DNA from: Armatimonadota bacterium
GTDB taxonomy: Bacteria > Armatimonadota > UBA5829
Reading direction: 5' to 3'
Length of the DNA: 45,297 nt
Assembly: GCA_029907315.1 (NCBI GenBank)
Contig: JARYME010000012.1
Location: forward strand, 1 to 45,297
The translations under genes were made by a program, and so were the position numbers. The notes below the pieces were generated by a model, which saw nothing but the letters and a program-made list of their open reading frames with translations, was not told the origin of the DNA and did no database searches. Positions 19,798 to 20,868 of the stretch are shown in pieces (within the stretch, counting starts at the first letter, position 1; each line of letters opens with the position of its first letter).

Positions 19798-20868
19798 CTA
19801 CCTCTGCTGGACCCCGAGCCAGGATGCTCGGATTACGCGTTCGCCTGCTTCGGTGTCGAGGGTACCCGTCACCAGAACTGTGCACCCGGCTTCCGCAGTC
19901 CGACCGGTAACTTTTATCGCCGCCGTGCGGTCGGCAGACTGTATGTAGCAGCAGTCGGCAAACTCAGCGGACCCAGCGGTAACGCAGCTCGGTCCGAGGG
20001 AGACCACCGCACCGTCAGGCAGATTCTTCGCCTCGCTTATGGTAAGCGGCTTTCTCACCCGGGCGAGTGCATCCACTTCACCTCCTTTGCTCGAGAGTTT
20101 TACGTAACGCACCCAGGCAAACCCGGACTGCGCCAGGTCGTACGCAGTGCCTCCTGCGGAACCCTTGTAGAGCTCTATGGCATCCGCCACATATAAGCCG
20201 GCGAAATTGCTGGGGGTAAGCGCAGGGTCAACAGGCTTCGTGGGATCCAGCTCACCGTCCCATGTGTGGGCTTCGCTGTTCCAAGCGAACGCATTTGTAG
20301 GCCAATAGCTGTCAGCTGTGGGCGCGGAGTATTCGTACCAGTTCGTACCGTCAGGACTGACCGCGACTACAACGCTCTCGCCGGTAACGGACGCGTTGTT
20401 GTTGACCCGATAGGTGGCCATGTCGGTATCGTATCGCACGTAGCCTGTTCCGACAAACGCAGCATTTCCGAACACGATGAAATCGAGCCCGTACCAGTTG
20501 GCTGGGTCGTCGCAGATAGGTGGGTCAAACTCTACGATTATCCGCCCCGGTGTGTTTGTGTTGCCGATGGTGACTATCAAGGGCGAACCGTCCGGGGCGG
20601 TATTCCACGCGCCGTAGACCATCGAGCAGGCATATGTTCCGCTCGGAACGCCTGGTCCGCCGGGCTCCTTGATCCATTTTGTGGGCGGTCCAAGCACCGC
20701 GTCCGGAACACCGTAGATGCCTGCACCGAGGTTGGAATAGTCGACCACCCTCGCTGCAAAATCGGCTGCACCGACGGACAACCCGACGAGTGCGCCTAAC
20801 AAACCAACTATGAACGCGGTGAACACGAGCTTTCTGAAAACTTGCCGCGGCAGTATCACGTGAATCAC
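19798..20868 (-). CDS. Secreted protein of unknown function (surface-protein-like) in cobalamin-riboswitch operon
   Basis: N-terminal signal/[50 protein letters not shown]; start (GTG) overlaps upstream stop; alternative GTG at 20859. Confidence 0.75.

Follow-up and report, generated by a model that had tools for sequence, protein, structure and literature searches.

A 356-amino acid secreted protein of an Armatimonadota bacterium carries in its N-terminal 234 residues what is, on the evidence of sequence profiles, a distant homologue of BtuH, the B12-binding domain of Bacteroides, making the protein a member of the BtuH superfamily. Its gene lies in a 45,297-nt stretch of DNA (the window), 770 nt downstream of a cobalamin riboswitch on the same strand. 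We consider it probable, at roughly 75%, that the protein uses its BtuH-type domain to capture corrinoid outside the cytoplasm, under control of the riboswitch. As the best explanation, this reading joins homology of the domain, a fold match of the partner protein encoded next to it, the riboswitch, conserved synteny and a gene fusion, all of which were observed. From these we infer binding of the corrinoid, repression of the operon, hand-off of the ligand and the role of a pseudopilin. The features concerned are the following.

21827-21855, minus strand: promoter-like site TTGACA-17-TACACT, 16 nt upstream of the riboswitch (consensus scan)
21638-21810, minus strand: cobalamin riboswitch RF00174, full-length aptamer (model positions 1-189), 104.6 bits (Rfam)
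20865-21617, minus strand: pseudopilin gene, type IV prepilin N-terminus, DUF1559-like start (Pfam, TIGR02532, reading by eye)
19798-20868, minus strand: target gene, encoding the 356-aa secreted protein (open reading frame list; homologues found)
20065-20766, minus strand: BtuH-like domain, residues 35-268, 234 aa (alignment A1, AlphaFold2, hhalign, A2 profile)
20464-20466, minus strand: codon of Asn135, in DFIVFGN, the equivalent of BtuH2 Asn399 (alignments A1 and A6)
19801-20052, minus strand: C-terminal module, residues 273-356, 84 aa, a possible OB-fold (repeats in its own genome, weak profile matches)
19205-19768, minus strand: gene of a 187-aa PEP-CTERM partner, with a transcobalamin-beta-like domain at 19286-19708 (AlphaFold2, PDB matches)

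The open reading frame called in the first-pass annotation is present exactly at these positions and on the minus strand, and the protein segments quoted there, including the C-terminal one, recur letter for letter in the translation. Secretion, also claimed there, agrees with a hydrophobic N-terminal stretch ending in VGAADF, which we read by eye as a signal peptide. Homologues whose domain is 84% identical in a congener and, for the most part, 41-52% identical elsewhere, together with conserved synteny, rule out a chance reading frame. No Pfam or NCBIfam family matched the target above its cut-off, a PDB sequence search with the target alone returned nothing relevant, a plasmid search gave no match, and a search of genome contigs recovered one congener as the sole match. 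Two candidate identities were rejected: BtuG, for lack of a YncE/DUF5074 beta-propeller match in Pfam, and DUF4465/BtuJ, with no Pfam DUF4465 match and no BtuJ among the best 50 of 146 Foldseek matches. DUF4465/BtuJ proteins are secreted B12-binding jelly rolls (beta-sandwiches) associated with the cobalamin loci of several phyla (PMC13398666), and the target resembles them in being a secreted beta-sandwich tied to cobalamin loci.

Homology to BtuH was assessed against two Bacteroides thetaiotaomicron references, BtuH2 (BT_1956; PDB 7BIZ) and BtuG1 (BT_1490; PDB 8BLW), the latter of which has a BtuH domain. A search with the profile of the target's own domain family (A1) extended the family to remoter relatives, both within Armatimonadota and in nine genomes belonging to other phyla. 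The 17 more distant relatives within Armatimonadota form profile A2; A3 combines the nine sequences found outside the phylum with three distant Armatimonadota sequences. Compared with all PDB sequences, A2 gave just two matches, BtuG1 (E 8.6e-29) and BtuH2 (E 1.3e-19), and the match to BtuH2 spans the whole B12-binding domain. The same profile matched the window protein on the same scale (E 1.3e-16). One sequence common to A1 and A2 (L069) was removed from both to exclude circularity, after which A2 still matched the window protein at E 2.7e-16 and the BtuH2 domain at E 4.3e-21, while the best of 999 shuffled controls reached E 3.9. By hhalign, A1 scored 99.9% against A2 and 99.6% against A3. 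Direct comparison of A1 with BtuH was weaker (E 0.013 for A1 alone against BtuH2; hhalign 86% over 49 columns), and a search of PDB sequences with A1 yielded nothing relevant, BtuH2 being absent. Homology therefore rests on the intermediate family A2; since A3 had no match among PDB sequences, it is A2 and not A3 that connects the family to BtuH. Homology established via an intermediate family is ordinary for remote relatives.

This chain from the window protein through A2 to BtuH2 and BtuG1 supports the kinship with Bacteroides cobalamin-locus surface proteins that the first-pass annotation had proposed. The Bacteroides motif cited there is real, with BtuH2 (7BIZ) reading YDFCVQGNAFDGSSEPGIVWVMQDINGNGLPDDEWYEL. 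Of BtuG and BtuH, which that annotation put forward for comparison, BtuH is the relative, together with the BtuH domain within BtuG1; BtuG itself, whose propeller is absent here, is not. The target shares with BtuH2 and BtuG1 the DF-x(3)-GN motif including its Asn, secretion and a cobalamin riboswitch. It differs from them in its possible OB domain, its pseudopilin and transcobalamin-beta-like partners and the lack of a BtuB neighbor, and in being no recognizable lipoprotein, with neither a PKD domain nor a propeller. All 17 members of A2 were also matched by NF033170, the NCBIfam LIC_13355 family lipoprotein (best E 1.8e-9), and this lipoprotein family probably belongs to the BtuH superfamily as well; the window protein itself matches it at E 0.034 only, far under the family cut-off. 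When BtuH was described, no structural homologues of the domain were known, and the survey covered gut Bacteroidetes only (PMC8941943); our literature search found no report of BtuH outside gut Bacteroidetes.

AlphaFold2 predicted the BtuH-like domain with a pLDDT of 96.3. The structural and profile comparisons suggested with the first-pass annotation gave different answers. Foldseek of the model against the PDB returned F5/8C-discoidin/CBM32-type proteins as weak best matches (best E 0.02, TM ~0.2-0.5) and BtuH was not among the best 50 of 146 matches, whereas profile comparison reached BtuH. A discoidin identity was not adopted from matches this weak. The C-terminal 84 residues, guessed earlier to be OB-fold-like, are compatible with the OB folds of YgiW (E 0.045), BOF (E 0.034) and PF01336 (E 0.044), all of them weak matches. 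A search of the source genome with this module found 22 weaker places, mostly matching query residues 263-353, and the OB-like module appears to be a common add-on in about 20 otherwise unrelated large proteins of the same genome.

The riboswitch of the window is the only RF00174 match in the 3.3-Mb assembly. The promoter-like site ahead of it has 10 of 12 consensus matches and a TG before the second hexamer, but is suggestive only, because two such sites were found in the region and 1.1 were expected. Between riboswitch and target lies the pseudopilin gene, with PF07963 and TIGR02532 matches above cut-off and PF07596 just under; by eye, its likely start is the ATG at 21617, behind a GGAGG (21627-21623). 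The GTG start of the target and the stop codon of the pseudopilin gene share a 4-nt overlap. A second pseudopilin gene in the window (35110-35952) has weak similarity to the first, and its start is probably downstream of the called one because the reading frame overlaps a tRNA (35874-35946). No BtuB, BtuF, BtuC or BtuD was found adjoining the target gene.

Relatives of the domain occur in 42 of 291 Armatimonadota genomes searched. Flanks of 30 regions were extracted for an Rfam scan. Upstream sequence was sufficient at 28 loci, the window included, and three loci cut by contig ends (L050, L058 and L068) were left out of the riboswitch count. Cobalamin-class riboswitches precede the target in every one of the 28, always on its strand and at a median distance of 806 nt. 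The pseudopilin profile matched in 27 of these 28 cassettes, and the PEP-CTERM partner was recognized in 21. In two loci (L067 and L068) the BtuH-like and partner domains are one protein. Thirty genomes searched whole contain one to three cobalamin riboswitches each, and one stands ahead of every BtuH-like or partner gene located in them. For the distant Armatimonadota relatives, no riboswitch was found at L119 or L121, and L122 has short upstream sequence. Variations on the cassette include two tandem cobalamin riboswitches ahead of a single one (L041, 8922-9112 and 9283-9412, minus strand) and two BtuH-like genes behind a single riboswitch (L049 and L051), one gene of each pair having OB-like modules and the other a PEP-CTERM tail. 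L051 also has tandem c-di-GMP-I riboswitches (13715-14017, minus strand), a few kb away from its cobalamin cassette.

Outside Armatimonadota, a cobalamin riboswitch accompanies all nine loci. Relatives in distant phyla are therefore found under the same riboswitch class, as the first-pass annotation had envisaged. Some of these loci show the BtuB-BtuG-BtuH arrangement of Bacteroides. TonB-dependent receptors lie between riboswitch and BtuH-like gene in three of them (L105, L107 and L108), and in L107 and L108 the BtuH-like domain is fused to a DUF5074/YncE-like (BtuG-like) propeller, a fusion also seen in BtuG1. A DUF5074/YncE-like propeller gene precedes the BtuH-like gene in L109, and in L104 a partner-like protein (E 5.4e-5) is encoded directly ahead of the BtuH-like one. 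Most of the nine are without the cassette pseudopilin.

The partner gene begins 29 nt after the target gene, and its product ends in a PEP-CTERM-like tail. The AlphaFold2 model of the partner (pLDDT 90.3) has a predicted fold of the transcobalamin beta domain type. Among its 19 best PDB matches, 17 are transcobalamin, intrinsic factor or haptocorrin, with probability 1.00, and the remaining two are both chains of a single Ruminococcus protein (3U7Z); against the isolated human beta domain, the model gave TM 0.75-0.77. The partner is like the beta domain of transcobalamin, intrinsic factor and haptocorrin (e.g., PDB 5NP4) in predicted fold and cobalamin context; it differs from it in being bacterial and PEP-CTERM anchored, with ~13-15% identity and no alpha domain seen. 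The BtuH-like domain and this partner would thus place two unrelated cobalamin-related folds in one operon. No Pfam family matched the partner family (A4). Weak partial matches to the SCO2322 family (NF040672) were found in 16 of 23 partner homologues (best E 1.1e-7), the window's partner reaching 19.9 bits where the cut-off is 85, with partial overlap only. Our literature search gave nothing useful on SCO2322 or on a link between bacterial DUF4430 and transcobalamin. Ten further genomes have the partner and no BtuH-like match (G074, G079, G088, G092, G111, G156, G015, G018, G023 and G219), and each of them has a same-strand riboswitch match 0.3-1.4 kb ahead of the partner gene, with scores just below the Rfam cut-off in G074, G092 and G111.

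The source genome, 97% complete, had no match to CbiB and five matches to B12-binding domains, which fits a corrinoid scavenger, although in a draft assembly the absence of one gene is no proof. As in a Bacteroides-type cobalamin locus, the riboswitch is present here, but btuB is not in the locus. A single match to the TonB receptor barrel (PF00593) and one clear FecCD permease were found in the genome, each on another contig than the target. A FecCD-type permease gene also occurs in locus L134 (6215-7282); in the part of the locus that was read, no gene for a binding protein or an ATPase adjoins it.

BtuH2 contacts B12 through Gln333, Asn399, Phe401, His476, Tyr510, Trp511, Trp577 and Leu578, Asn399 reaching the nucleotide loop (PMC8941943). 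All eight letters fit the 7BIZ sequence at an offset of 100. The Asn aligned with Asn399 is invariant in alignments A1 and A6; it is the only one of the eight that the window protein clearly retains. That protein has no counterpart of Gln333 or Trp577 and an Ala in place of Phe401, and it lacks the BtuH insertion bearing His476, Tyr510 and Trp511. With the published contacts mostly unconserved, the window protein is to be regarded as a member of the BtuH superfamily and not as an orthologous BtuH. Corrinoid binding by it is putative, one contact residue being clearly kept and most lost.

The loss of most BtuH2 contact residues would also fit a protein that belongs to a corrinoid system without binding the ligand, acting instead as a scaffold or vesicle-related surface protein similar to Bacteroides BtuL while the transcobalamin-like partner binds. 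There is precedent, as proteins of riboswitch-controlled cobamide loci need not bind B12: no binding was detected for the cobamide-locus lipoproteins BtuL and BtuK2 (PMC12751083). We nevertheless think this unlikely, as the Asn of DF-x(3)-GN is invariant despite wide sequence divergence of the family, and alternative aromatic residues are conserved in a family-specific loop. A discoidin/CBM32-like domain that binds carbohydrate or a surface, tied to the riboswitch through some other B12-related physiology, would account for the type of the best Foldseek matches, but those matches are weak, sequence profiles point to BtuH and the partner has a predicted transcobalamin fold; we judge it very improbable. 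Barely credible is control by the riboswitch of the pseudopilin only, with the downstream genes incidental. The near-constant pseudopilin is usually the first gene of the cassette, as such control would have it, yet the relatives in other phyla follow cobalamin riboswitches and for the most part lack this pseudopilin, and in the window the target gene overlaps it.

Corrinoid capture by the BtuH-like protein is the reading we prefer, and its mechanism may be as follows. At low intracellular corrinoid the riboswitch would leave the operon on, so that secreted pseudopilin, BtuH-like protein and membrane-anchored transcobalamin-beta-like protein are made together. The BtuH-like and transcobalamin-beta-like domains would then bind the same corrinoid, or one would relay it to the other, concentrating corrinoid outside the cytoplasmic membrane for uptake. 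A part for the pseudopilin in presentation or assembly is speculative and suggested by its near-constant presence. BtuH, which captures scarce B12 at the cell surface, offers one analogy for this mechanism (PMC8941943, PMC10404256). Transcobalamin, which holds cobalamin between two domains, offers another. A more specific and decidedly tentative version, to our minds rather doubtful, has the two domain types, encoded in one riboswitch-controlled operon and in some cases joined in a single chain, sandwich the corrinoid in the manner of animal transcobalamin and so form a two-part bacterial 'transcobalamin'. A dedicated pseudopilus would present the two or carry them through the envelope, in bacteria that have no BtuB in the locus.

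Members of the BtuH superfamily, most of them not covered by a Pfam model, are now seen under cobalamin riboswitches in Armatimonadota and in nine genomes from outside that phylum, and a bacterial cobalamin operon is linked to the beta-domain fold of animal B12 carriers. Two unannotated families, the BtuH-like proteins and their partners, become directly testable. With the superfamily extending beyond gut Bacteroidetes, environmental competition for corrinoids may rest on many more extracellular binders, and our data suggest that bacteria use this kind of extracellular B12 capture much more widely than has been reported.
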